Of a DNA stretch of 64,000 nucleotides, positions 4,949 through 55,806 are shown in pieces (the first letter of the stretch is position 1; the number at the start of each line of letters is the position of its first letter). Both the position numbers and the translations under genes were made by a program. Under the pieces are notes generated by a model. That model searched no databases, had not been told where the DNA came from, and saw only the letters and a list, made by a program, of their open reading frames with translations. Source of the DNA: Spartobacteria bacterium (GTDB lineage Bacteria; Verrucomicrobiota; Verrucomicrobiia; Chthoniobacterales; UBA10450); assembly GCA_003134785.1 (NCBI GenBank), contig PLCN01000020.1, forward strand, positions 1-64,000, read 5' to 3'.

Positions 4949-5800
4949 TCAGTCCTTCCCAAAAATGTAACGATCCACCGCCTCTGCGAAGCCTTCCTCT
5001 TCCGAAGAAGCGGTTACGTAAGTCGCGGCGCCCTTTACTTCCTCGCTGGATTGTCCCATGGCAATGCTGACGCCACTTTTCGCAAACATGGTGGTGTCGT
5101 TAGGCATATCACCAATGGTCGCGATTTGCTCCACCGGAATTCCGAGCATCTTCGTTAGCGCCAGCACCACCGCGCCCTTGTTGGCATCGGGATGTGTCAC
5201 GTCGAGGTAATAAGGCTGCGACCGCGCGGCCGAGACCTGACTAGCCTGCTCGCGCAGCGGGTTTGATTGCTGAGAATGAACCGCGCTCGCAAACTCCCGG
5301 CGCACCGCTTCCTCACACCTAGCCACGGCCTCGAGGTCGTCGCTTACGCCCACGATCTTCGCCACATCATCCATCTTGCCAGTGAAGTCCGGCACGACCG
5401 TGGGTGAAAACTTCACGGTCCATTCCTCGCGATCCACATGGGGTCCATGACGCTCGGGGACAAACCAGTCGATGCCACGATAGATCCAGACATTGAGCCG
5501 GTGCGCCCTAATGATTGCGATCACCGGCTCGACGACTTCATGCTGAAGCACCCGTTGTTCGATTACGCTGAGATCTGGCCGCACAAAAAGTCCGCCGTTG
5601 AAGGCGGCGATAGGCGTGGTGAGTGAAAGCGGTTCGATCAACATTTGCATGCCGCGCGGGGGCCGCCCGCTTGTGATTGCAAAGGCGATGCCTGCTTCCC
5701 GCAGCCGGGACACCGCCGCCTTAGCGCGCTCTGTCAGCACTTTCTCGTGCGTGACCAGCGTCCCATCAACATCGGCAAGAAGAAGTCTAATTGTAGTCAC
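4949..5800 (-). CDS. Cof-type HAD hydrolase
   Basis: This 283-residue cytosolic protein is a member of the HAD superfamily, Cof (class IIB) branch. Motif I is ADVDGTLVT near residue 10, with the nucleophilic aspartate and acid/base aspartate; motif II is ITSGRP near residue 43; the C-terminal GDMPNDTTMF motif near 230 supplies the Mg2+-binding acids. Cof enzymes usually dephosphorylate sugar phosphates, nucleotides or pyridoxal phosphate; the substrate cannot be read from sequence. It stands alone, with no partner on the same strand. Length and motifs are normal. Confidence 0.88.
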   Translation of the reverse strand: MTTIRLLLADVDGTLVTHEKVLTERAKAAVSRLREAGIAFAITSGRPPRGMQMLIEPLSLTTPIAAFNGGLFVRPDLSVIEQRVLQHEVVEPVIAIIRAHRLNVWIYRGIDWFVPERHGPHVDREEWTVKFSPTVVPDFTGKMDDVAKIVGVSDDLEAVARCEEAVRREFASAVHSQQSNPLREQASQVSAARSQPYYLDVTHPDANKGAVVLALTKMLGIPVEQIATIGDMPNDTTMFAKSGVSIAMGQSSEEVKGAATYVTASSEEEGFAEAVDRYIFGKD

Positions 5801-6079
5801 TTTGCCAGTATACCTGCGTTCGCGGGGTTCCGTGTGTGAAAATGTGTTTTCCTTCTAACGCAATCCATCGGCGATGGAGAGAGTCTCACCCATGATCCAT
5901 CCCTGCGAGATGACGCTTAAAAAAGGAGCGTCCTCGCTTCTACTGGGTTAGTGGCTCTTCTGTCTAATCCCGAATTCCCGTTAGTCGGGCGAAGATTGTG
6001 ATAGCGAATATTGTGACGTATAGGACAATATTCGGGTAACCCGCCGATTTAACGACGGCGCTGTGACCAACCAGACACC

Positions 6080-7711
6080 TTGACAGTGACCTTTCCTGCT
6101 ATCGCGCGACCCTACGGAACCTTTCGCGGTGGCGGATTCGCGATCGGCCTTTGTCTCATTGTGGCCTTGAAGCTCTGGCTGGTTCAGACCGAAGAGATCT
6201 ACGGAAGCGCGACTGAGTTCGACGCGCTTTGGTACTTGAATGCGGCCAAACATTGGTACTGGGGCTCCGAATACAGTTGGACCGCCTTCGCGCGGCCACC
6301 GGCTTATCCGTTGTTTGTCGCATTCGTTCACCTTCTGGGACTTCCACTTAGGATAGGCATCGAATTCATGCAAATGGGCGGATACCTGAGCTTGGTTGCC
6401 GGGCTCCGCAAGGCTGGCGCGCCGCGGGCAGTCTGTCTCTTAAGCTATGCCGTCATGGTCCTTCACCCGGGCAGTTTCCAGCAAAACAACTATACGATGG
6501 CGGATAGTTTGTACACCGCTATCCTACCTCTAGCTCTAGGAGGCCTGATACTAACTCTGCTTTCGGCCAGGATCATGCATGCAATCTGGACCGGGATAGC
6601 TCTTGCCCTACTCTGGAATACTCGCGAAGAAAGCCTTCTTATCCCGATGATGTTTGTTGTCTTCTTTGGTGTTGCATTGCTCTGCCGGCGCTCCCAAACA
6701 AATTCGTGGAGGAGTGCAATGCTCTCCTGGCTCAAGCCAGCCGGTGCGATGCTGGGAATACTCACCTTCTTAGTTCTCGCAGTCGATGCAGCTAACTACC
6801 ACGCATTTCGCAGCTTCTCCAAATCTGAGCTGACCGCGTCCAGTTTCAAAGCTGTCTATAGGGCACTGCTTCGAATCAAGCCCAGCCGCGACCAACGCTT
6901 TGTCTCCGTTTCCACCGAAGCGCTGGACATGGCCTACAAGGTCAGCCCTACTTTTGCGAAGCTAAGGCCACAATTCGAAGGTGAGCTCGGCCACAATTGG
7001 CAAGTCCCGGCTTTCACTACCCTCGGCGTTCATGAAATTGGGACACCCTGGTTTCTCTGGGCTCTTCGGGGTATGACAGCGAATACCCAGAATCTGTACC
7101 AGACTCCTACCTCCGCGAAGCGGTTCTATCGCAATGCGGCCAGGGAAATCAATCGCGCCTGTGATCAGGGTAGGATTCCGAGTCGCTATGTGCTTTCGAG
7201 CTTTGTTGATCCCGGCGCGATCAAGAACATTGGTTACCTGCCGGAATCGTTCTCAAGAATTGCCGGCTTGTTTCTGCTTCGCTACGAGAATACCAGGGCC
7301 CATGACGATGCCATCCTGACCGAGTCTCAGCGGGCGCTCTACGATGAGATGACAGGCCGCGGCGCTGCCCGAAATCATCCAGAAGGATGGTCAACAACAA
7401 CCGAGACCTTCATTGGTAGCTACCATCGGTTCCTTGTCGTCGGGCTGTCGCTAGCAGGAGTGGTGGCAGCCTCCATCCTGGCCTGGCGCTTTCGTCGGCT
7501 CCAGATCAACGACCCACTTAACGCCGTGCTTATTCTTCTTGCCGCAACAATCCTCCTCCGAGTGACGCTCTTTACCTTTCTCGATGCAACCTGGTGGATA
7601 GGCGGTTACGAGCGCTATCTTTTCCCGGTAGCGCCGCTCTATTCCTGTTTTCTCATCTTGCTCATCTATCAAGCCAGTGCCACATGGCGGCGACGTGGGG
7701 AAGCGAGGTGA
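6080..7711 (+). CDS. Polytopic membrane protein, glycosyltransferase-39-like
   Basis: The 543-residue protein has a hydrophobic segment near the N-terminus, several more between about 110 and 235, then a soluble stretch and more helices near the C-terminus (450-535). The early pattern EFDALWYLNAAKHWYWG followed by ARPPAYPLFVAFVHLLG resembles the first luminal/periplasmic loop of PMT/ArnT-type glycosyltransferases, which carry acidic residues there and use lipid-linked sugars. I cannot assign a substrate. The start is uncertain: a TTG at 6080 or a GTG at 6086; no ATG lies near. No operon partner is clear; the next gene begins 78 bases downstream. Confidence 0.6.
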   Translation: MTVTFPAIARPYGTFRGGGFAIGLCLIVALKLWLVQTEEIYGSATEFDALWYLNAAKHWYWGSEYSWTAFARPPAYPLFVAFVHLLGLPLRIGIEFMQMGGYLSLVAGLRKAGAPRAVCLLSYAVMVLHPGSFQQNNYTMADSLYTAILPLALGGLILTLLSARIMHAIWTGIALALLWNTREESLLIPMMFVVFFGVALLCRRSQTNSWRSAMLSWLKPAGAMLGILTFLVLAVDAANYHAFRSFSKSELTASSFKAVYRALLRIKPSRDQRFVSVSTEALDMAYKVSPTFAKLRPQFEGELGHNWQVPAFTTLGVHEIGTPWFLWALRGMTANTQNLYQTPTSAKRFYRNAAREINRACDQGRIPSRYVLSSFVDPGAIKNIGYLPESFSRIAGLFLLRYENTRAHDDAILTESQRALYDEMTGRGAARNHPEGWSTTTETFIGSYHRFLVVGLSLAGVVAASILAWRFRRLQINDPLNAVLILLAATILLRVTLFTFLDATWWIGGYERYLFPVAPLYSCFLILLIYQASATWRRRGEAR

Positions 7712-7789
7712 GCGTCCTTGTTGCAACGATTCCGGATCGCGCCTGCACTCAAACTGGCGCGTTCGCGACAGACCCATTATAGGTCAGGT

Positions 7790-8641
7790 ATGAACGACGT
7801 GAATACCGCGCAGATGTCCGCCATCGCAAAATTTCGTGCTATGCACGAGTCAGGTTGTTTTGTCTTGCCGAATCCCTGGGACGTCGGGACGGCTGTCTAC
7901 TTACAGCATCTGGAGTTCAAGGCGCTGGCTACGACTTCGGCCGGCGCTGCTTTTAGCCGGGGATTGCCTGACTCGGTGCAAGCCGTCTCCTGCGACATGA
8001 TGCTCGCGCACATCCGGGAGATCGTCGAGGCAACACCGTTGCCCGTGAACGCGGATTTTCAAACAGGCTACGCGGACGAACCGGAAGGGGTCGCGGCTAA
8101 TGTGAAGCGTTGTGTTGCCACCGGGGTCGCTGGTCTTTCCATTGAAGATGCAACCGGCGACAAGACAACTCCGCTCTACGAATTCGATCTGGCAATCGAT
8201 CGCATCAAAGCGGCGCGCGCGGCGATCGATGCCTCGGGATTTCCCGTGGTGCTGACGGGACGCTGCGAGTCGTGGCTGGTAGGAGTGCCTGACGCGAATA
8301 ACGTGGCGCTCAAGCGACTCGCCGCCTACGCGGACGCTGGCGCCGATTGTCTCTATGCGCCGGGCGTGACCGATCCCACGGAGATCGCGGCGATCGTGAA
8401 AGCGGTCGCTCCGAAACCGGTAAACGTTCTCGTCTCCCGCGCCAGCGCAGCATTGTCGGTTTCGCAGCTCGCGGATCTTGGTGTTCGTCGCATCTCAGTC
8501 GGCTCGGCTCTGGCGTGTGTGGCATGGGGAGCATTTATGCGCGCGGCTCGAGGCCTTACCACTGGCTCGTTCGATGCCTTCGCCGACGCGGCTCCCTATT
8601 CCGAAATCAACGGTCTCTTCGTCGAGCGAAGTGCGCGCTAG
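7790..8641 (+). CDS. Isocitrate lyase / PEP mutase family enzyme
   Basis: The 283-residue protein belongs to the ICL/PEPM superfamily of TIM-barrel enzymes that make or break C-C or C-P bonds in carboxylates such as 2-methylisocitrate or oxaloacetate. Matching features are FVLPNPWDVGTA near the start, FKALATTSAG, the metal-region segment NADFQTGYADEP, and GLSIEDATG. ATG 7790 is chosen because AGGTCAGGT precedes it and the family normally begins near this point; the open frame itself extends further upstream from a TTG. The KKCGH lyase signature of true isocitrate lyase is absent, so it is more likely a paralogue of the oxaloacetate-decarboxylase or carboxyPEP-mutase kind. It is followed after 30 bases by serA on the same strand. 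Confidence 0.82.
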   Translation: MNDVNTAQMSAIAKFRAMHESGCFVLPNPWDVGTAVYLQHLEFKALATTSAGAAFSRGLPDSVQAVSCDMMLAHIREIVEATPLPVNADFQTGYADEPEGVAANVKRCVATGVAGLSIEDATGDKTTPLYEFDLAIDRIKAARAAIDASGFPVVLTGRCESWLVGVPDANNVALKRLAAYADAGADCLYAPGVTDPTEIAAIVKAVAPKPVNVLVSRASAALSVSQLADLGVRRISVGSALACVAWGAFMRAARGLTTGSFDAFADAAPYSEINGLFVERSAR

Positions 8642-8671
8642 CGTTTTTGTCACAGCTGCAATCATAGACTC

Positions 8672-10264
8672 ATGACCGCTCCAAAAATTCTGATCGCCGA
8701 TTCCATTTCGCAAAGTGGTGTCGACGAATTGGCGCGAGATGGCGCGCTCGAAGTTTCCACGCAAACCGGCTTGAGCGAAGCCGCGCTGTTGGAAATCGTT
8801 CCGGATTTCAGCGCGGTCGTGGTGCGCAGCCAGACCAAGATCACAGCGGCGGTGCTGAAAGCGGGATCGAAGCTGCGAGTCGTCGGACGCGCTGGAGTTG
8901 GGATCGATAATGTGGACGTAGCGGAAGCAACGCGGCGCGGCGTGATCGTGATGAATGCACCGGGCGGTAATACGATTTCCACCGCGGAACACGCCTTCTC
9001 GCTCCTGCTTTGTGTCGCGCGAAAGATTCCGCAGGCCGACGCGACACTCCGCGGCGGAAAATGGGACAGGAAAAATTTGGAAGGCGTCGAGCTTTTTAAC
9101 AAAACGCTCGGCATCGTGGGGATGGGCCGGATCGGGAGCGAATTGAGCCGGCGCGCGATTGCCTTTGGAATGCGTGTCGTTGCTTTCGATCCCTATCTCT
9201 CCGCGACTCGTGCGCGCACGTTGCAGGTGGAGTTGATCGACGAACTCGACGATCTCCTGGCCGCGGCGGATTTCATTACCTTGCACACACCGCTCACGCC
9301 GGAGACGCATCACTTGCTTGATCAGGCGCGACTGGCGAAAACGAAACGCGGCGTGCGCGTGATCAATTGCGCCCGCGGCGGCCTCGTCGATGAGACGGCG
9401 CTCGTGGAAGCGTTGCGTTCAGGCCACGTGGCTGGAGCCGCACTCGATGTTTTCGAAACGGAGCCGTTGCCGGTTGATTCACCGTTACGGGATGCGCCGA
9501 ATCTCGTCCTCACGCCGCACCTCGGCGCGTCCACGGCCGAGGCGCAGGAGAGTGTCGGTATCGAAATCGCGCAATCGATCCGGGCCGCGCTTCTCGAAGG
9601 AACGATTCGGAACGCGGTGAACATGCCGAATCTCGACGCGAAAACGCTCGCAGTCGTCGGGCCGCATTTACGTTTCGGCGAGAAGCTCGCGCGTTTCCTG
9701 GCCCAGCTCGCGCCCAAGCGGGTCGAGCGACTCAACATCAATTACAGCGGGAAGGTGAACGAAGTCGATACCACCGCGATCACGCGCTCGGTGCTCAAGG
9801 GATTTCTGGAACACGCCGGCGGCAGCGAGATCAACGAAGTGAATGCGCCGGCGTTCGCCGAAAGTCTCGGGATGAAAATCACAGAGACGCGTTTGAGCGC
9901 GGTCGGCGATTACACCGATCTGCTCGAACTGTCCGCGGTGGCCGAGGGCAAAACTGTTTCAGTGGCCGGCGCATTTTTCGGTGCGACGCCGCGGATCGTA
10001 AATGTAAACAGTCGTCCGGTGGAAGCGCGTCCGCATGGTGTCGTGCTCGTGCTGGAAAACACCGACCGTCCCGGCATCGTCGGGCGGATAGGAACGTTAC
10101 TCGGCGAGCACGGAGTAAATATCGCGACGATGTCGCTGAGCCGGAACCAGGCCGGCGGCACCGCGTTGACCGTTTTGAATCTCGACACGACGCCGGATGA
10201 TGCGCTGCTCGAAAAGATTCGGGCGAGCGACGACATAAAATCCGCGCAGGTGATTCAGTTGTAG
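8672..10264 (+). CDS. serA: D-3-phosphoglycerate dehydrogenase
   Basis: The 530-residue protein catalyses the first step of serine synthesis, NAD-dependent oxidation of 3-phosphoglycerate to 3-phosphohydroxypyruvate, in the cytosol. It has the long type I layout: substrate domain, Rossmann domain with GIVGMGRIGSE near 150, catalytic Arg in INCARGGLVDE, Glu in FETEPLP and His in LTPHLGAST, then the intervening regulatory domain and a C-terminal ACT domain (VLENTDRPGIVGRIGT onwards, about 455-530) that in relatives binds serine for feedback inhibition. ATG 8672 follows the previous gene by 30 bases. Composition is like its neighbours. Intact. Confidence 0.96.
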   Translation: MTAPKILIADSISQSGVDELARDGALEVSTQTGLSEAALLEIVPDFSAVVVRSQTKITAAVLKAGSKLRVVGRAGVGIDNVDVAEATRRGVIVMNAPGGNTISTAEHAFSLLLCVARKIPQADATLRGGKWDRKNLEGVELFNKTLGIVGMGRIGSELSRRAIAFGMRVVAFDPYLSATRARTLQVELIDELDDLLAAADFITLHTPLTPETHHLLDQARLAKTKRGVRVINCARGGLVDETALVEALRSGHVAGAALDVFETEPLPVDSPLRDAPNLVLTPHLGASTAEAQESVGIEIAQSIRAALLEGTIRNAVNMPNLDAKTLAVVGPHLRFGEKLARFLAQLAPKRVERLNINYSGKVNEVDTTAITRSVLKGFLEHAGGSEINEVNAPAFAESLGMKITETRLSAVGDYTDLLELSAVAEGKTVSVAGAFFGATPRIVNVNSRPVEARPHGVVLVLENTDRPGIVGRIGTLLGEHGVNIATMSLSRNQAGGTALTVLNLDTTPDDALLEKIRASDDIKSAQVIQL

Positions 10265-44765: not shown

Positions 44766-47700
44766 CTACGCAGCATCTTGCCCGGTATGGGCGAACGTTT
44801 CAAAGACGTGCTCAAACACAGCTGAACATTTCTGCTGGTACAACTCAGGCGAATAAGAGCGTGGCAAGCCATCGTCGAGTTCGTCTTCAATTGCCAGCCG
44901 CACTTGCGCCCGCGCCTGCGCTTTCTGTCGCCAGTCGATCACGAGCGCCTGTTTCACACGCTTCAGCAGGAGACGCGTGACCTTCTTCACTTCCTCACGT
45001 TCCTCATCGCTAAGGTTAGGTCCTGGCCGAGTGAGAAGATCGAACACTGTAAGCTCCGCCTCACTAAGCTGTTCGCGGACGTGGCGCTGCTGTTCCTCAT
45101 TGAGACTGCGGCTAAAGACGAGCAACTCCTCGAACAGTTCTTGGATCGTTCGGCTACCAGAGTTGTACGACTCAATCAGCTCCTCAAACTTCGTCAGGTA
45201 GTCAGCGCGCGTTTTGTTTAGCCGGATAAGCTTGTCGAGTTGAGCGCGGATCGCCGCCTTCAGCTGCTCCAAGTCGATGTTCTTCTTCTTCGATTGCTTG
45301 AACCGTTTTGCCAGCTTCTCGAAATCGATTTTTGCCAGGTCAATGATCGCGCGCCCGTCACCGTCGGCGCGGATGTTGAAGCCATCGGCTTCGATCGATT
45401 CATCCAGCAACTCGTTTACTTTTGCCATTACCGCTGAGATGTCCGCTGATTGTTTGCCGGTGGTGCGCAAGCGGATTTCGTCCGCAATTATTCCAAGGCA
45501 GTAAACGCGGGAGACAAACTCCAGTACGGCGGGATCAGGCTTGATCGCCTGAAACAGAGTTCGAACCAGTCTCTCGCGCGCGAGAAACTCTTTCCGCAGC
45601 GGATCGGGCGAGATGAGTGCGTCTACTGCGTCACCGATTAACTGCACCTTCTCCAATCCGGCGGCACTTTCGGTCTTGGCAATGTCCACACCGTGCTCTA
45701 AGCAAAACGCGACCGCTGCTTCAACGGTTTTCCCGAGTTCCTTGATCAACTCGGCTTTGTCGCGCACCGGTGTCGCGCCACCTTTGCCTGCTCCATAGAT
45801 CGCGAGTGCCTTCTCGAGTGACGCGAACACGTTCGCGTAATCCGCGATCAGCCCGCTGTGCTTACCGGGGAACACTCGATTCGCGCGCGCAATCGTCTGC
45901 ATGAGTGTGTGATTCCGCATCGGCTTATCGAGATAGATCGTGGAGCAACTCGGCGCATCGAATCCGGTCAACCACATCGCGCAAACAAAAGCGATGCTGA
46001 GTGGATCGTCAGGATCTTTGAACTTCTCATCGAGCGGTTCAGCATTCATGCGCTGTCGATGTGGAACGATGTCGAGCCCGAGCTTCACCATTCGCTCTAC
46101 TTCGTTTTGGGCGGCGGAGACGATCAAGGCCATATCCACCGCTTTGATGCGCGCTAGCCTGTCGTTCAGCTCACGCACTTTATCTGGATCGGAAGCGGTG
46201 AACTTAGTTAGCCTCGCAAGCTCGCCTTCAACACGCGTCCGTTCTGCCGCCCAGTGCTTGCGCACTTTGTCGTGCATCTTCAGTGCGGTCGCCTTGTCGA
46301 TGGAAACGACCATCGCTTTCCCTTGGAAGCCGCGGCCAAGGAAATGATCGACGATGTCCTTGGCTACTTTCTCCAGCCGGTCATCACGCGTGATGATCTG
46401 GTATTGCCGGCCGAGTTCGCGCTCCAGCTTCTTCTCGGCTTCGTCATCCAGCTCAGCGGCTTCGATTAGCTCGTAGATGTCTTCGTTGAGGTTCGGGTTC
46501 TTGAGCCGCAACTCCGGCGTCCGGTTTTCGTAGAATAGCGGCACCGTTGCGCCATCTTCGACCGACTGCTGGAAGTCGTAGATCGAGACATAGTCACCGA
46601 ACACCTCGCGCGTCCGCTCTTCGCCGGAGATCAGCGGCGTGCCGGTGAAAGCGAGGAACATCGCGTTCGGCAGCGACGCACGCATGTTCAACGCGAGCGT
46701 GTCGTATTGGCTGCGATGGGCTTCGTCCGTCAGGACGATGATGTCGCGCCGATCCGAAAGCACCTCCGGCGCCTGGAACTTGTGGATCAAGGTAAACACG
46801 AACCGATGATTCCCGCGCAGGAGTTCGCGCAACTCGGAGCCGCTTTGCGCATGGCACTCGTCGCCCTCGTGCTGCGTGACGGCGCCCGTCGCCTTGAAGG
46901 TCTTCGCGATTTGATCGTCCAGTTCCTTGCGGTCGGTGACGACGACGAACGTCCAGTTACCCGTGATCTTCCGCAAAACTTTCTGGGAGAAGAACACCAT
47001 CGAGAAACTCTTCCCGGAGCCCTGCGTCTGCCAGAAAACTCCGGCGCGTCCGTGTCCTGCCTTCCGCGCTGTAAGCATGGAAGCCATCGTGTTGTTCACG
47101 CCGAGCACCTGATGATTCTGCGCGAGAATCTTGATCAGGCCGCTCTTGTGTTCGGAGAAGAGAGTAAAATTCTCGATCAGATCGAGCAATCGACCCGGCT
47201 CGCAGACGCCGCGGATCATCACCTCCAACGACACGCGGCGCGGTTCGTCCTCGCGCTCGACGCGCTTCCATTCTGCCATCCGCTCCCAATCGGCCGTGAT
47301 CGAGCCGACGCGGCTTTCGGTCCCGTTCGAGGCGATGATGAGCGCGTTGTAGCGGAACAACGCCGGCACGCCATTCTGCGGGTGTTTGTAACTGGTGATG
47401 TTCTCGTCGAACGCTGCGCGCGCGGAAACGCCCGGCTTCTTGAACTCAATCAGGACAAGCGGTAATCCGTTGACGAAACCGATCAGATCAGGCCGGCAGG
47501 TGTAGAGCGGCCCGGTGAAGGTCATTTGACTCACGAGCAAAAAATCGTTCGCCAGCGGATCATCCCAATCGATCACGCGCACCCGCTCGCTCCTCTGGCC
47601 GCCGCGCTCCGGATCAGGCACGCTCACCTGCACTCCTTCTTTTAGGAGCGTGTAGATTTCGCGATTCGCCGCCGCGGGGAGCATCGCGCTACGGTCGCGT

Positions 47701-47936
47701 GTGAGCGGATCGACGGCGGCAGCAATCGCCCCCGCCGACAGTTGCGGATTGAGTCGCGTTAAGGCCGCCCGCAGCCGCGTCACCAGCACTACTTCGGCGC
47801 TGGTCTCGCGCTCCAATGTTCCGTTCGCGCCGAAGATTTCCTCTCGCGCCGAGATCGTACTCCATCCCATACCAGCGAACAGCGCGACCGCCGGCTGTTC
47901 AATCAACTGATCTTCGCTGTAGGTATGGAAAGTCAT
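44766..47936 (-). CDS. hsdR: Type I restriction enzyme R subunit
   Basis: The 1056-residue protein is the motor and nuclease subunit of a type I restriction system. An N-terminal PD-(D/E)xK nuclease has D150 in CRPDLIGF and E164-F-K166 in VLIEFKK. The translocase follows with Walker A at 304-310 (TQGSGKS), DEAH at 404-407 and motif VI-like LIADYANVF downstream. The protein reads through without a break. It starts MTFHTYSEDQLIEQPAV. Between it and hsdS lie vapBC, a decayed DUF1016 gene and the accessory genes. A stub of a second hsdR start is at 49397-49468. It needs hsdM and hsdS to act; hsdM here carries a frameshift. Confidence 0.95.
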   Translation of the reverse strand: MTFHTYSEDQLIEQPAVALFAGMGWSTISAREEIFGANGTLERETSAEVVLVTRLRAALTRLNPQLSAGAIAAAVDPLTRDRSAMLPAAANREIYTLLKEGVQVSVPDPERGGQRSERVRVIDWDDPLANDFLLVSQMTFTGPLYTCRPDLIGFVNGLPLVLIEFKKPGVSARAAFDENITSYKHPQNGVPALFRYNALIIASNGTESRVGSITADWERMAEWKRVEREDEPRRVSLEVMIRGVCEPGRLLDLIENFTLFSEHKSGLIKILAQNHQVLGVNNTMASMLTARKAGHGRAGVFWQTQGSGKSFSMVFFSQKVLRKITGNWTFVVVTDRKELDDQIAKTFKATGAVTQHEGDECHAQSGSELRELLRGNHRFVFTLIHKFQAPEVLSDRRDIIVLTDEAHRSQYDTLALNMRASLPNAMFLAFTGTPLISGEERTREVFGDYVSIYDFQQSVEDGATVPLFYENRTPELRLKNPNLNEDIYELIEAAELDDEAEKKLERELGRQYQIITRDDRLEKVAKDIVDHFLGRGFQGKAMVVSIDKATALKMHDKVRKHWAAERTRVEGELARLTKFTASDPDKVRELNDRLARIKAVDMALIVSAAQNEVERMVKLGLDIVPHRQRMNAEPLDEKFKDPDDPLSIAFVCAMWLTGFDAPSCSTIYLDKPMRNHTLMQTIARANRVFPGKHSGLIADYANVFASLEKALAIYGAGKGGATPVRDKAELIKELGKTVEAAVAFCLEHGVDIAKTESAAGLEKVQLIGDAVDALISPDPLRKEFLARERLVRTLFQAIKPDPAVLEFVSRVYCLGIIADEIRLRTTGKQSADISAVMAKVNELLDESIEADGFNIRADGDGRAIIDLAKIDFEKLAKRFKQSKKKNIDLEQLKAAIRAQLDKLIRLNKTRADYLTKFEELIESYNSGSRTIQELFEELLVFSRSLNEEQQRHVREQLSEAELTVFDLLTRPGPNLSDEEREEVKKVTRLLLKRVKQALVIDWRQKAQARAQVRLAIEDELDDGLPRSYSPELYQQKCSAVFEHVFETFAHTGQDAA

Positions 47937-47948
47937 CCGCCGCGGCGG

Positions 47949-48317
47949 CTAGAGAGAGGCAAGTTGATCGAAATGTTTGTCGCGGTGCAGCAGTTCGACT
48001 CGGTTCACCCTTGCGCAGGCATGGATCAACAGATCGGGATATGGGCAGCTCATTCCCTTGCTGCGCGCGCGCTCAGCCAGTTCGATCGCGTGTGCCCAAA
48101 CACCTTGTGTAATCGGCAGATCAGTGACGATCGACTGATACTGCACAAGAATGCTGCGCTCCCGGGCATCGCGCGTTCCAGGCCAGAGCTCGAGCCGAAT
48201 TGCGGCGCACCAGGCAGCTTCTCCAGCCTCCAGCAGCATCTGCAGCCGCTGCCGAATATCCGCAGGACCCGATTGCCGCAAGGCATCAATCCAAACCGAC
48301 GAATCAACGAGAACCAC
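47949..48317 (-). CDS. vapC: VapC-type PIN-domain toxin
   Basis: The 122-residue protein has PIN-domain acids in LVDSSVWIDAL (D5), RLELWPG (Glu), and PYPDLLIHACA (Asp), the layout of an Mg2+-dependent RNase. VapC toxins cleave tRNA or rRNA when free of antitoxin. Its start overlaps the end of the antitoxin gene by 14 bases, the usual coupling. It sits just upstream of hsdR. Confidence 0.9.
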   Translation of the reverse strand: MVLVDSSVWIDALRQSGPADIRQRLQMLLEAGEAAWCAAIRLELWPGTRDARERSILVQYQSIVTDLPITQGVWAHAIELAERARSKGMSCPYPDLLIHACARVNRVELLHRDKHFDQLASL

Positions 48318-48540: not shown

Positions 48541-49392
48541 TTAAAATGGCGCAAATTGGATGCCAGAACAAGCGTATATCGGCTTCCGTGATACCCGTAG
48601 CCAGTCGGCGGGGCGTCGAGTTTGTCGAGAAAGGCGAGGTTGAGGGAGCCACTGCAATTGTGCACCCGGCTGGTGCATAATTACCCGATTGGATTCTTTG
48701 GGCTTGGTCAATTGGGTATCAGGCTGCTGCACAATTGCCGTCTCCGGCCACGCCTCGGCGAAGGCCCGCATATATTTGAGATTGCGCGGGGAGAAGCCCT
48801 GCTGGCCAGCGACCGTCCGAAGCGCTGTTTTGACCGCGAGCATGTGGTCACGACGGCGGGAGGTTTGACTTTCGCCTCGTTGTGGAATCCGGTCACGGCC
48901 GCAGCTGCATGGACCGGCATGTTCACGCACAAACCGATGTTCACGCCCCCGTGAACTTGGCAGATTTCGTGAACATTGGACCGAACGCGCTGCGGTCGAT
49001 TGACGGCCATCTTGCTTCGCAATGCCGAAAATTCTGGCGGCCGGCAATTGTGCCGATGCTGCTGGCACAATTGCGAAGACGTCTGGATATTCCCGGTAGA
49101 AAGCGATCATGCGCTTCAAATTTCGCTCCGAGAATCCCCGCATCTCCGGGAACTCCGCGTGCAGGTCGGCCGCCAGCCGCGGGATCACGCCCGCGCCCCA
49201 GCCTTCCTTCGCCTGCATCTCCGCGATGCGCTGGCCCATCTGCCAGTAGAGCAGGACCAGCTCCGCATTCGCGGCCAGGGCCGCTTTGACCTGGGCGGTG
49301 CGGATGCGCGCCTTGATCTCAGCCAACAAAGGCGCGTAGTCCGCCGGCAGCACCGCGACGGACTTGGACGATTTTGGAAGGCGCTTGGTCAT
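48541..49392 (-). pseudogene. Degenerate DUF1016 / YhcG-like nuclease gene
   Basis: From ATG 49392 the first 120 residues are a good DUF1016 N-terminal domain: LLAEIKARIRTAQVKAALAANAELVLLYWQMGQRI and EFPEMRGFSERNLKRMIAFYREYP. After about 130 the sequence loses the family, then a second, partial copy of the same region appears (GFSPRNLKYMRAFAEAWPE) and ends in shifted frames (PADWLRVSRKP). The C-terminal PD-(D/E)xK part is missing. So it looks like two DUF1016 fragments joined after deletion, not a working gene. It sits between the hsdR stub and vapB. Confidence 0.75.
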
Positions 49393-49396
49393 GCGG

Positions 49397-49468
49397 TTAG
49401 AAATGCTCCGCGAACAACCCGGTGGCGGGCTGCTCGACAAGCTGGTCTTCCGAATGGGCGTGAGGCAT
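49397..49468 (-). pseudogene. 23-codon stub resembling the hsdR start
   Basis: The frame reads MPHAHSEDQLVEQPATGLF then AEHF and stops. The intact hsdR begins MTFHTYSEDQLIEQPAVALF then AGMGW. The similarity is at protein level while the codons differ, so this is not a recent copy. It starts 6 bases after the Nmad2 stop, exactly where an hsdR would follow in an operon. Confidence 0.6.
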
Positions 49469-49474
49469 GGCGTA

Positions 49475-50098
49475 TCAGCAGCATGCGCTTGGGGAATCCG
49501 CATTACATAGCCGATCTCGATCCTTTTCCGTTGGAATCCCCACCTTCATCCGTCGGTATTTCCTCCAGTTTTCAGCTTTCAGCGCCAGAAGTTCTCCGCG
49601 CAACGCCGCAGAATGATAGCGACGATGTCCCTGTTTCAGGTTCTCGACCAACCTTCGGATCTTCGGGTATCGCTTCTTGAAATCGTCGGTGCCTTTGTGG
49701 CCGAGATATCGAAAGTCGTCGCTGAGAAGCACAAAGGCATTCTCGAAGTGAAAACCTACATCCTTCTTTCTTTGATCCGAGTCAGAGTGGTATCTAGCGG
49801 AGACTTTGCGTGCGGGTCGGTCATTCTCTACTCGGTAAATGCAATCGGGTCGGCGTGCAAACCCACGCTGTCGATAGTAGGCGTCTCCCTGCAGCTTGCC
49901 AGTGACTCGCGCGATGTAGATCAAGCGTTCATCGTATCCCTTTCCACCGAAACCGAAGACGAGTGACTCTTCACCTGCGGTCTTGCGAATCTTTGGCTTG
50001 CAGATGGCGAGGCTGAGAAGGTTACCGCTCACGCAGGGTGCACCGCCGTTGTCGGTAACCATTTTGTAAACGTAAATCTCCCTCTCGTTGTCAGTCAT
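49475..50098 (-). CDS. Nucleotide modification associated domain 2 (Nmad2)-like
   Basis: The 207-residue protein carries VTDNGGAPCVSGNLLSLAICKPKIRKTAG, then VFGFGGKGYDERLIYIARVTGKL and DAYYRQRGFARRPDCIYRV. This resembles the Nmad2 domain, predicted in surveys of DNA base-modification systems and found beside restriction and modification genes. The substrate is unknown. Its ATG is one base after the Nmad3 stop (TGA-T-ATG), so the two are co-translated. It may handle or read modified bases; no enzyme making such bases is in the window. Confidence 0.65.
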   Translation of the reverse strand: MTDNEREIYVYKMVTDNGGAPCVSGNLLSLAICKPKIRKTAGEESLVFGFGGKGYDERLIYIARVTGKLQGDAYYRQRGFARRPDCIYRVENDRPARKVSARYHSDSDQRKKDVGFHFENAFVLLSDDFRYLGHKGTDDFKKRYPKIRRLVENLKQGHRRYHSAALRGELLALKAENWRKYRRMKVGIPTEKDRDRLCNADSPSACC

Positions 50099-50099
50099 A

Positions 50100-50801
50100 T
50101 CAGTTGTTGCGTTGGATCAGCGCCGGTTTCTGCGCCAGAAACCAACGGTAGAATTTTGCGGCGTCCAGGAACGCTGGGAGCCTCACGCTGCGCTGAATGT
50201 AGCCATCCTTGATGTCAAGGCCGCCCCAGGCATCTAGCAGGTCGTTGCGCACCCGATAGGTGCTGTCACGTAGCTCACCGATTGGAATACAGCAGCGCAA
50301 ACGGCCAGAGACGCCGGGTTTGGCACGCACGACAATATCACTCTCGCCCGGCTCCCGACGCGTATGCGCGTTCTCGGGCCAGCGCGCCTGCGGCACGGAC
50401 TTGGCCGCGACAATTTCTTCAATCACATACAAACCGATGAGCGCGTAGATTAGCGGCCGGGGCGGTCCGTCCACAGGACGCAGAGCGGCGAAGAACGCTA
50501 GCACGTCGCCCGCGGTCAGCAGCGAGGTAATGCGTTTCCCGCGCTGGCCTTGGTCGCCGTAGGTCAGTTGGTCGAAGTCAGGATCAAGATGCGTCGGTTG
50601 GCCCAGCAGCGGCGCGGGCAACCTCTCACCGAATCGTCTCGCCACAGGGATAAACTCGTCATAACAACGGGCCATACCATGGCGCAGCGGTTTTGTGTCA
50701 GTAATGGTGACGTAGGCAAACTCACCCGATGCCAACCTCATAGGTGCATTCCAACAACCGTCTGTCGAGTCAATGCCGATCCTGACGAGCAACCCGTTCA
50801 T
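50100..50801 (-). CDS. Nucleotide modification associated domain 3 (Nmad3)-like
   Basis: From ATG 50801 the protein (233 residues) begins MNGLLVRIGIDSTDGCWNAP. It has HGMARCYDEFIPVARRFGE, PTHLDPDFDQLTYGDQGQRGKRI, PLIYALIGLYVIEEIV and DIVVRAKPGVSGRLRCCIPIGE, ending in LIQRNN. This agrees with the Nmad3 domain. A GTG at 50885, next to the RT stop, would lengthen it; the later ATG matches the usual start of the family. Function unproven; adjacency to Nmad2 and RM genes suggests work on modified nucleotides. Confidence 0.65.
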   Translation of the reverse strand: MNGLLVRIGIDSTDGCWNAPMRLASGEFAYVTITDTKPLRHGMARCYDEFIPVARRFGERLPAPLLGQPTHLDPDFDQLTYGDQGQRGKRITSLLTAGDVLAFFAALRPVDGPPRPLIYALIGLYVIEEIVAAKSVPQARWPENAHTRREPGESDIVVRAKPGVSGRLRCCIPIGELRDSTYRVRNDLLDAWGGLDIKDGYIQRSVRLPAFLDAAKFYRWFLAQKPALIQRNN

Positions 50802-50886
50802 TCTCGTCGTCAAATCCAACCAAGTTTTGAGAATAAACCGATGGTAAGCGGTTCCACAAACGGGTGTTCGGTATGAGCCTGCCACA

Positions 50887-52878
50887 TCACGTAGTCAGAA
50901 TGTGATCTGTAATAAGACGAAGTATCTTTGGCTCGTAATGCTCGAGATCTTCACGAGTGACTTTTACCGAGGGCTTTCCCTTCTGGCTGGGGTGTGAAAT
51001 CGCGTTGAAATTCCTCCGGTCGTAAAATTGCATGACAAGCAATTCATCCTCGATGCCGACCGTCTTGAGGCTCATCGTCACGTCAGCAAGCGTGGCATTG
51101 TCCGCGAGCTCGAAACGTAATTTGCAGAGTTCATGAAAGACGTTCTGGAAATGATTAAAGGCTACGTCCCACCGCTGGTTCCAACGTTCGTATACGTAAT
51201 ATTTTAGCAGCTGAATGATTGTTTCCTGTGAAGGATACTTCGCAGAAATACTTTGAATTGCGCGCTCGTGACCCGTTATGGGCGAAAAGAGGTAGACGTC
51301 TTTCTTGAACTTCTTGCCCCAGTGTTCACTACAGATTCTCCGATACACCACGTTGTCGGGAATCGATTCTGGAGGCTGGTAAAGACTTAAGAGATATTTC
51401 CCGTAGTTGTCGGCAGCGAGCTTGTGTGCGGCCCTGCTAATCTGTGCCTTTATTTTAGGTGGACCGGATGCCTGCGCCCAGCATGCCAGCACAATGTGAA
51501 TGTGGCGTTTGTCCGAAAGGTCTATGTCGTTCTGCAAGAAATGGAGGAGGATCTGGAAGAATGGCCGGTCCTTATTCTGCTCAAGATAAAACAGTGCAAT
51601 GACCACGTTGATTTGCTCTGCGGTTAACTCGAAATCGATTTGTTTTAGTATTGTCCGCACCCTTTCGGTGTTTTCCTTCTTGAAGAGGAAGGCTTGAAAG
51701 GGTTTGGCGAGAACGTGTTTTAGGCTCTCCCTTTCATTCAAGGGGAGTTCAAAGTCGAAGTCCTCGGTGTCTGGAATGCGGAACTTCTCCAGCACCTGTG
51801 CAAACTGCACGAATTGTCTTTCTATCTCAGTCCTCTGAGCCTCCAGCGCATCTGGAGTTTCATCGTCTTGTCCAGGACTCGACACCGCCTTCTTAGACGA
51901 TTTCAGAAATTCATCTTTGATGTCCGGAGACTTGATGATCTCCCGTTTCGTTTTCTCCGGGCTGATGCTCAAACCCCATTCGTTGTAGAGCCAGTTTGCG
52001 ACGCGCTGCTCGACCTTAAGCAGTTGTTTGAAAACTCGTCTACGCGAGAGCCCGGGCTCAGGGCTGAAAATCAGATACATGTCGTCCACGTAGCGGACGA
52101 AACTTTTCCACCGGAGGCAGGGCGCCTTCGCGAGCCTACCGACTTCCATATCAAAAGCGACGAGGTACAGGTATCCGAAATAGTCAGAGACGAAATTCTT
52201 TCGCCCTTGAGGGATGCCCTGTTTCCGCTGCATCAGCGACTCCAGATAAAATTCAATAGCAGGTGGCGACTCGTTGCTGATGTTGTGTTTCTGCAACGTG
52301 GATTCTGGGGCAAAGCGTCGCAGGAGAGCTGCTAGCTTGGAGTGCGATATCGTTTCGAAATATCCAGAGATGTCCATTTTCAGGACCGCGTCGCCCGGCT
52401 GGATATGTTGTTTGAGCGCATCAGAAAACTCTTTGTATTCGATCCGATAGTCATTCTTCACTTCCCAGCCCCCGGGGCTACTGAGAAATTTCGTGGGATA
52501 GAAGGAGAACACCTGCCTCCCTTTAAAATCGAGTTGTGTGAGGGTCGGAGAACAGCTGTCTACAAAGAGTAGGCCTATAGCATTATAGAGAATCATCGCA
52601 GGCGCTGAGAAGAAGCGATATTCTCTAACTGCGGAAAGACCCTTGGGAACCGATACGACGTCGGAGGCAAATAACTCCCGGAGCGAATATGCGAATTCGG
52701 TCGCGACGTATTTCCTATAGAGACCTTTGACCTCGCGGTCTTTTAAACCGACGAAATGCTCTTTGAGTAAGAGAAAATTTACATCGAAAATCATTTCGCC
52801 GCTCGTGCAGTAGTCGCGGCATATATGAAAAGCGTTTAGGAAGAGCTCCTCAGAAACGATGTCTCCGATCTTTTGCAT
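50887..52878 (-). CDS. Reverse transcriptase with HEPN-like C-terminus (AbiA-like)
   Basis: The 663-residue protein has RT motifs: D169 in VLKMDISGYFETISH, QG-x-PQG at 220-225 (QGIPQGRKNFVSDYFGYLY), the polymerase box YVDD at 263-266 in FVRYVDDMYLIF and the following GLSISPEKTKRE. It lacks group II intron maturase parts and there is no retron msr/msd nearby. From about 340 on it is helical. Near the end RRNFNAISHP (621-630) has R-x6-H, the HEPN RNase signature. RT plus C-terminal HEPN is the layout of AbiA-type abortive infection proteins. It lies 30 bases after hsdS. Likely a phage-defence enzyme; DNA synthesis product and HEPN role untested. Confidence 0.88.
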   Translation of the reverse strand: MQKIGDIVSEELFLNAFHICRDYCTSGEMIFDVNFLLLKEHFVGLKDREVKGLYRKYVATEFAYSLRELFASDVVSVPKGLSAVREYRFFSAPAMILYNAIGLLFVDSCSPTLTQLDFKGRQVFSFYPTKFLSSPGGWEVKNDYRIEYKEFSDALKQHIQPGDAVLKMDISGYFETISHSKLAALLRRFAPESTLQKHNISNESPPAIEFYLESLMQRKQGIPQGRKNFVSDYFGYLYLVAFDMEVGRLAKAPCLRWKSFVRYVDDMYLIFSPEPGLSRRRVFKQLLKVEQRVANWLYNEWGLSISPEKTKREIIKSPDIKDEFLKSSKKAVSSPGQDDETPDALEAQRTEIERQFVQFAQVLEKFRIPDTEDFDFELPLNERESLKHVLAKPFQAFLFKKENTERVRTILKQIDFELTAEQINVVIALFYLEQNKDRPFFQILLHFLQNDIDLSDKRHIHIVLACWAQASGPPKIKAQISRAAHKLAADNYGKYLLSLYQPPESIPDNVVYRRICSEHWGKKFKKDVYLFSPITGHERAIQSISAKYPSQETIIQLLKYYVYERWNQRWDVAFNHFQNVFHELCKLRFELADNATLADVTMSLKTVGIEDELLVMQFYDRRNFNAISHPSQKGKPSVKVTREDLEHYEPKILRLITDHILTT

Positions 52879-52908: not shown

Positions 52909-54131
<1,223 letters not shown>

Positions 54132-54135
<4 letters not shown>

Positions 54136-54497
54136 ACTTCTAGCAGGTCCCCCACATTTACCGCGATGGTTTCCTCCAACTCGCGAGCCTGCACGTTGAG
54201 CGTTACCAGTTCCTCGTTGAGGACTGCGAGCTGCGCCTTGAAGTCTTCGTCGCTCACGTCTTCGCCGGGGGCGACGCCGACGTAGCGACCGGGGTTAAGC
54301 GACCAGCCTTGCGCTTCAATCTCCGCGAGCGTCGCGGCTTTGCAGAGGCCGGCGACGTCGCGATACCGAAGCGAGTTGAGAGTCTTTGGTTGAGAGTTGA
54401 GAGACGAAGCGAAGACTTCCTTCAGCTTCGCTTTCGCCTCGTTGCCGCCGAGGGTAAAATCCGGCGCTTCGCCGCGATAGAGGCGGACGACGTTGGC
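54132..54497 (-). pseudogene. hsdM: C-terminal part of hsdM after a +1 frameshift
   Basis: In the frame that overlaps hsdS (stop TGA 54134-54132) the sequence continues the family: [39 protein letters not shown] and GRYVGVAPGEDVSDEDFKAQL. It matches the tail missing from the 54316-55806 frame. One extra base near 54498 explains the change. Confidence 0.75.
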
Positions 54498-55806
54498 GAA
54501 GGAAGCCGATCTGCGCGGGCGTCCAGTCGCGGTGCGCGCGGTCGATCTGCCGGTAGATGTGCCGGGCGTCTAAAAAGAGGACTTCGTCCTCTCGATTGCG
54601 GAGTGCGGAATGCGGATTGCGGAATTCAGACTTCGCCCGATCCAGGAACCAAAGGGTGCAGGGGAGCGTAACGGTGTAGAAGAGGTTCGGCCCGACGGCG
54701 ACCATGACATCGACGCTGCGGGCCTCGACAAGCTGACGGCGTATCTCCTTCTCGGAGCCACGGGCGTCTGAGGCGGAGTTGGCCATGACGAAGCCGGCGC
54801 GGCCGTTCTTATTCAGCGCGGAGTAGAAGAGTTGAATCCAGAGGTAGTTCGCGTTGTCGGTGCGCGGCAGGCCCAGGGGGAAGCGGCGATTCTTCCCGAC
54901 CTCGCCCTCCAGTCGCTCCTTATCGACCGCGTTGACGTTGAAGGGCGGATTCGCGAGGACGAAGTCGAAGCGTCCGGTGCTTTCGTGCGGGTCGTCGTAA
55001 TAGCTGTTCGCTTCCCGGATGTCCCCTTCGAGTCCGTGCATGGCGAGGTTCATTCGCGACAAGGCGACGGTCGTGCCGACCTTTTCGTGTCCGTGAATGG
55101 AAAGCTCGGAAGCCGGGTTTTTCTTGTGCTCGGCCACAAAGCTCGCGCTCTGCACAAACATGCCACCTGACCCAGACGCTGGATCAAAGACGCTGCCGTG
55201 ATACGGCTCCAGCACTTCTACAATGAAACGAACGATGCTGGCTGGCGTGTAGAATTCGCCACCCTTCGAGCCTTCCGTCCGTGCGAACTCGCCCAGGAAA
55301 TATTCGTAGATTCTGCCGAACGCGTCGTAATCAACGGTCGCCGGAATCTCCGAGACGCGCTTGAGCAACTGTTTCAGCAATGCGCTCGAAAAGAGCTCGT
55401 AGGTTTTCGGCAAGACGCCGGCGAGCTGTGGGTTGTCGCGCTCGATCGCGCGCATCGCGTCGTTCAGCTTCGATCCGATGTTCGCGCCTTCGGGCAGGGC
55501 GAGAAGGAAATCAAAACGCGCATCCGGGGCGAGGAAGAGGATCCCGTCGGCGTGGTAAGCCTTGGGGTCCTCCAGGCGCGAGCCACGGCGGCTTCCTTTC
55601 GCCTGTTTTTCAAGCACCGTTCGTTGCTTAGCGAAACGGACTTCAACGAAGCGAAGGAAAATCAGTCCGAGAACGGGTCCGGAATATTGCTGCGCGTTGA
55701 GCCCAGAGTTCGCGCGAAGTTGATCTGCTGCTTCCCACAGCCGCTTTTCCAACGCGTGGTTAGCAGCGTCTTTTTCTGAGGGGGCGATCCATTGCATGTC
55801 AGTCAA
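54316..55806 (-). CDS. hsdM: Type I restriction enzyme M subunit, frameshifted near the 3' end
   Basis: The 496-residue frame has HsdM_N ([30 protein letters not shown]-type, 25-55), the SAM loop [10 protein letters not shown] at 208-217 and the catalytic NPPF at 286-289 (N6-adenine methyltransferase). After residue 436 ([11 protein letters not shown]) the sequence turns into [10 protein letters not shown], a nonsense tail, and the true continuation is in the next frame to 54132. Either the assembly has one extra base near 54498, or the gene is truncated. The catalytic domain is complete. It is the first gene of the hsd operon. Confidence 0.88.

Follow-up and report, generated by a model that had tools for sequence, protein, structure and literature searches.

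Two adjacent genes of a Spartobacteria contig, belonging to the Nmad3 and Nmad2 families, appear to encode two coupled PUA-like proteins that together sense modified bases in the nucleic acid of invaders, a reading to which we assign a probability of roughly 60%. The genes lie within a 64,000-nucleotide stretch of DNA (the window), between the hsdS and hsdR genes of a type I restriction-modification (RM) locus. This gap also holds other cargo genes and short fragments of the hsdR 5' end, which we call scars. The features of the locus are as follows.

54316..55806 (-), hsdM; PF02384, E=5.5e-73; frameshifted near 54.5 kb
52909..54135 (-), hsdS, type I specificity subunit; PF01420, E=3.5e-24
50887..52878 (-), AbiA-like reverse transcriptase (RT), 663 aa; PADLOC AbiA, E=2.4e-32; separate cargo
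50806..50892 (-), scar 1, degraded hsdR 5' fragment, MWQAHTEHPFVEPLTIGLFSKLGWI*; nhmmer E=4e-8
50100..50801 (-), Nmad3 gene, 233 aa, ATG start; PF18754, E=1.8e-17; PUA-like fold predicted
49475..50098 (-), Nmad2 gene, 207 aa; PF18753, E=3.4e-21; PUA-like fold predicted
49403..49475 (-), scar 2, hsdR 5' fragment directly after Nmad2, MPHAHSEDQLVEQPATGLFAEHF*; nhmmer E=3e-18
48541..49503 (-), damaged DUF1016 gene (listed ORF); PF17761, E=3.3e-34; PADLOC PDC-S02; cargo after scar 2
47949..48317 (-), VapC-like PIN toxin gene; PF01850, E=2.3e-11; NF047959, E=1.4e-17, under the curated cut-off
44766..47936 (-), hsdR; TIGR00348, E=3.5e-142; open along its length; 90% to the HsdR of locus L047

Both proteins carry the domains named in the original prediction, with scores far above the curated Pfam cut-offs (64.2 bits vs 27 for Nmad3, PF18754; 76.1 bits vs 26.1 for Nmad2, PF18753). 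The prediction would have fallen had neither protein matched an Nmad model, and it survives that test. The predicted spacing was also correct, a single base lying between the TGA of Nmad3 and the ATG of Nmad2. The start residue of Nmad3 is common to its homologues, and the protein is 87% identical to that of the sister locus L047. Comparison with relatives gave dN/dS values of 0.08-0.10 for Nmad3 and 0.08-0.12 for Nmad2, indicating purifying selection on both genes. Each family has one match only in its own genome; phages gave no match to the Nmad3 or Nmad2 of the window, and plasmids gave few. It had also been claimed that no modifying enzyme is nearby. None was found among ten genes of the locus scanned with Pfam, and these ten genes do not constitute a TET/JBP-type hypermodification system. 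Searches of the genome with Tet_JBP and 5-hmdU kinase (HMUDK) models gave no match either, with control genomes equally silent. The lack of a modifying enzyme in the locus is no anomaly, as the pairs that Nmad3 forms with a partner elsewhere showed no recurrent third gene beside them, whether for such an enzyme or for anything else.

Nmad2 and Nmad3 very probably adopt a PUA-like fold, the beta-barrel superfamily fold that two aligners returned for their AlphaFold2 models at Z scores of 7-8.5, which are moderate. The Nmad3 model (57 sequences) reached a pLDDT of 96.5 and the Nmad2 model (25 sequences) 87.4. For Nmad3, the best Foldseek match was the McrB N-terminal domain with 5mC DNA (6p0g; E 4.8e-3, probability 0.95), with ASCH domains next, while VIA-align placed EVE-type proteins first (Z 8.2-8.4), then YTH, VcaM4I and ASCH (5guq, Z 7.4). 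For Nmad2, Foldseek ranked THYN1 with 5mC DNA (5j3e) and other EVE proteins first, followed by YTH, and VIA-align gave YTHDC1 at Z up to 8.5. The two models thus independently return one superfamily on top, PUA-like (EVE/YTH/ASCH). No EVE, YTH or ASCH profile was detected at the sequence level, where Nmad2 and Nmad3 were the sole Pfam matches at E<=0.1, and by this measure neither protein belongs to the EVE family proper. PDB sequence and profile searches with the RT, Nmad3 and Nmad2 returned nothing useful. The proposal that the proteins read phage-made modified bases agrees with both the PUA-like folds predicted for them and the defence setting, with base binding as the inferred step; going by fold and context only, we consider modified-base reading by the Nmads rather probable.

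We compared the pair with 65 other Nmad3 loci, 64 from a species-genome scan with an Nmad3 alignment and one from a viral scan. Partner profiles detected a partner gene beside Nmad3 in 50 of them, across about 14 phyla. These partners comprise 21 of Nmad2 type (two partial or weak), 27 of a type B (two partial) and two of a type C (one on the other strand); types B and C correspond to no Pfam family. Among the 15 partnerless loci, Nmad3 is damaged in three (L061, L107 and L109). Spacing between Nmad3 and its partner is mostly -25 to +19 nt, with a 4-nt overlap frequent, and Nmad3 and type B occupy one ORF in L066, L067, L088, L097 and L115, and perhaps in a sixth locus, L087. In a class sample of 286 genomes, Nmad2 occurred in 8 and Nmad3 in 9, with both on one contig in 3. 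The partner label switches many times on the Nmad3 tree, at least four of them on well supported branches, and the partner is Nmad2 in the window and type B in the sister locus L047, showing that Nmad3 is usually partnered but that its partner is exchangeable. We conclude that Nmad3 and its partner are a real coupled unit. Nmad3, Nmad2 and type B showed no convincing relation when their profiles were compared, and hhalign of Nmad3 against Nmad2 was likewise unconvincing.

Some loci have further features. A LEM-3-like GIY-YIG gene lies right after Nmad3 and its partner in L057 (11325-12167) and L059 (11286-12134), where the partner types differ. An Nmad3-like gene occupies a similar place in two haloarchaeal plasmids (L040, 9052-9867; L041, 9010-9843), near acyltransferase and arginase genes and in no obvious defence setting.

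Nmad2 also occurs in other settings. In L026-L028 its neighbours are genes for thymidylate synthase and 5-hmdU kinase, and the clusters containing the 5-hmdU DNA kinase helical domain span 4950-9652 (L026), 5467-9918 (L027) and 7418-9857 (L028); L026 additionally has a dCTP deaminase-like gene and L027 a ThsB-type TIR gene. Nmad2 follows such a TIR gene in L027, L043 and L111. In viral contigs, it lies near genes that by eye resemble nucleotide pyrophosphohydrolase and uracil-DNA glycosylase (L112, 1140-4007; L113, 6584-9476; L114, 5718-8594; a TIR-like gene included). This neighbourhood recurs in plasmids L042 and L043, where the annotation names the pyrophosphohydrolase and uracil-DNA glycosylase. 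Judging from these neighbours, the ligands of that Nmad2 branch may be modified forms of uracil or thymine.

We think it unlikely that the pair is instead enzymatic, with one protein working as a PUA/ASCH-like hydrolase or transferase on RNA or a modified nucleotide and the other serving as its cofactor. The structural matches do include ASCH proteins (5guq), and some members of that family are catalytic, being ribonucleases or N4-acetylcytidine amidohydrolases. Invariant polar residues are also densely packed in Nmad3 (HxDPDF, YGD, NAHxR) and could equally form an enzyme site. Two mixed alignments were too divergent for a pattern search. Furthermore, a recurrent effector neighbour is missing for most pairs, and no conserved effector was found beside them. 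However, the top Foldseek matches of both proteins are binding domains with 5mC DNA (6p0g and 5j3e), and Nmad2 joins other effectors, such as the ThsB-type TIR, as a sensor would.

A sensor would be in keeping with the surroundings of the pair. The HSDR_N domain was found in 7 of 50 Nmad3 loci vs 0.44 expected from gene density in the 50 genomes themselves (P about 4e-7), and outside the close Verrucomicrobia clade in 4 loci vs 0.33 expected, so the co-occurrence with type I RM that had been put forward as a check is indeed enriched. In L047 the pair immediately precedes hsdR, and in L048 and L051 only a short distance separates the two. Other cargo at the hsdS-hsdR site is defence-like (Lit, HerA, SoFic, PDC-S06, DUF1016, AlbA_2). 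As assembled, the type I RM operon of the window is not intact: hsdS and hsdR are open, and hsdM is frameshifted, its C-terminal part continuing in another frame up to hsdS. Relative to the L047 hsdM (84% identical), the frame shifts at about 54505, through true decay or an assembly error. The RM enzyme may consequently have lost its function in this locus, whereas the pair has been retained.

The pair could also be imagined as a type I specificity adaptor, docking on HsdR or HsdS so that the complex then attacks modified DNA. The position before hsdR in those three loci and the significant RM enrichment speak for this, as do a published prediction for EVE and ASCH proteins near type I RM and a fusion of ASCH to HsdS in Methanohalophilus (PMC7641849). 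Nevertheless, the majority of pairs in the phyla sampled lack an RM neighbour, HsdM and HsdR being undetected by tblastn within 10 kb in 53 of 64 Nmad3 loci (some contigs are short), and the window hsdM is frameshifted, yet both Nmad genes are intact. We therefore regard an adaptor as improbable.

In this lineage, genes inserted into the hsdS-hsdR gap are bounded by hsdR 5' scars. In L048-L053, the HsdR start MPHAYTEDQLVEQPAIGLFAELGW is encoded in the 70-80 nt before Nmad3. A DNA model of the scar (nhmmer), built from these loci with the window left out, found two copies in the window in addition to the genuine start of hsdR. Scar 1, whose ATG overlaps the RT stop (TGATG), is the more decayed, with 65% identity to foreign hsdR and 52% to the window's own. 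Scar 2 is 91% identical to the foreign hsdR consensus vs 62% to its own hsdR, suggesting that its cassette was probably imported. Multiple copies also occur elsewhere: L051 has four, separated by Nmad3-Nmad2, a Fic gene and one further stretch, and L150 and L147 have two each. Scar left ends coincide with the hsdR start codon, and right ends vary, so that about 40 to 260 nt of hsdR are retained. The junction between scar and Nmad3 is kept behind different upstream genes, for example HerA (L052) and Lit (L053), suggesting exchange by homologous recombination at the scar.

Two other accounts of the fragments were considered. As ORFs of about 29 codons, with stops overlapping the Nmad3 start in L048-L053, they might be coupled leader peptides, but in the window, L055 and L056 these ORFs have decayed, making scars the likelier account. 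A fixed recombination site is argued against by the varying right ends. At E<=0.01, a class scan for the scar matched 63 of 384 genomes; many of the matches were weak or fell on ordinary hsdR starts. Solitary hsdR 5' fragments, with no hsdR detected nearby, adjoin Fic, AAA-type or unknown genes at 9694-9770 (reversed L157), 9542-9621 (L159) and 9796-9872 (L164).

Scar 1 fills the 86-bp gap between the RT and Nmad3, setting the two genes apart as separate cassettes. The neighbouring RT is a real gene (52878-50887), AbiA-like and with YVDD intact. Relatives of it were found neither in other Nmad3 loci (tblastn) nor in the plasmids or viral contigs searched. It also has no close relatives in the class searched, and its C-terminal end (RRNFNAISH) is by eye HEPN-motif-like. 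In an RVT_1 search of the 50 genomes, an RT fell within the Nmad3 locus just twice: L053 has a UG19 RT with a Lit-type peptidase gene after it, and L106 a DRT4 RT that lies between hsdS and hsdR in the opposite orientation. The three Nmad3 loci with an RT, including the window, thus have three RT classes. The proposed co-occurrence check thus gave no other locus with an AbiA-like RT and 2 of 50 with RTs of other classes, vs 0.20 expected (P=0.017), a slight enrichment as expected for a defence island. The idea that the RT, Nmad3 and Nmad2 form one operon, with the Nmads handling nucleotides or cDNA made by the RT, is favoured by same-strand adjacency in the window and by this enrichment, but we consider it highly improbable given that the window RT is absent from all other Nmad3 loci, that neither of the other two RTs is AbiA-like and one of them has the opposite orientation, that a degraded hsdR fragment parts the RT from Nmad3, and that Nmad3 relatives lie behind like scars with HerA (L052) or Lit (L053) upstream instead. 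Likewise, the suggestion that the Nmads act on the dNTP pool used by the RT is not supported, as the RT is not a conserved neighbour and an hsdR scar intervenes. The locus is not a DRT system with Nmad accessory genes, since the RT neighbour is not conserved; the RT is an unrelated passenger beside the Nmad pair.

In our preferred explanation, Nmad3 and Nmad2 would act together as a sensor of modified bases in an invader, probably as a physical heterodimer and with an antiviral role. The pair would be one of several defence cassettes gathered between hsdS and hsdR, with the upstream RT and the downstream DUF1016 and VapC genes as others. Each cassette would once have abutted an hsdR gene, with later accretion leaving short 5' scars as boundaries. 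Protection could be exerted via HsdR where RM adjoins. Most pairs have no RM neighbour, suggesting that the pair may otherwise act alone or via host factors, and cooperation with HsdR in the window is the part of which we are least sure. We suggest tentatively, at less than even odds, that type I RM operons of this lineage are cassette collectors, scar homology shuffling defence cassettes between the operons of different lineages. If so, the shuffled cassette here would be a new two-component modified-base sensor with interchangeable partners.

As far as we found in the open-access literature, the fold assignment for Nmad2 and Nmad3, the frequent pairing in which the partner can be exchanged and is fused in some loci, and the presence of hsdR scars at cargo boundaries are new; a search of open-access titles and abstracts found no report of hsdR fragments bounding cargo. 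Nmad domains have so far been named from genomic context only. With a reader fold predicted for both, an almost obligatory two-gene arrangement across many phyla and a second family of partners, the Nmads become a testable sensor system. The scars, in turn, provide a sequence record of defence-gene build-up inside restriction operons and help to distinguish, within defence islands, genes that work together from mere passengers.

The pair resembles several known systems. Standalone EVE proteins, often with ASCH, occur near type I RM (PMC7641849); as in the window, these are small PUA-like proteins beside HsdRMS, and they are predicted to steer defence to modified bases. In contrast, Nmad2 and Nmad3 are not detectable as EVE or ASCH by sequence, and the Nmad pair is coupled, mostly without RM, with exchangeable partners and fusions. 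A figure legend of the DefensePredictor study lists thymidylate synthase, 5-hmdU kinase and NMAD among validated anti-phage systems (PMC13092281). Going by that legend, the Nmad2 of L026-L028 has the same kind of neighbours, whereas thymidylate synthase and kinase are absent from the window locus; the legend states neither the Nmad family nor a shared operon. McrBC and EVE-HNH proteins (TgMcrB, VcaM4I) also contain a PUA-like reader domain, share the predicted fold and occur in a defence context, but the putative Nmad readers have no fused nuclease or motor. Lastly, the hsdS-hsdR gap has been suggested as an insertion hotspot, with DarTG2 lying between hsdS and hsdR in the RptR island (PMC12255303), so that defence genes occupy the same type I gap as in the window. 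Unlike that island, the Verrucomicrobia arrays carry hsdR 5' scars between successive insertions.
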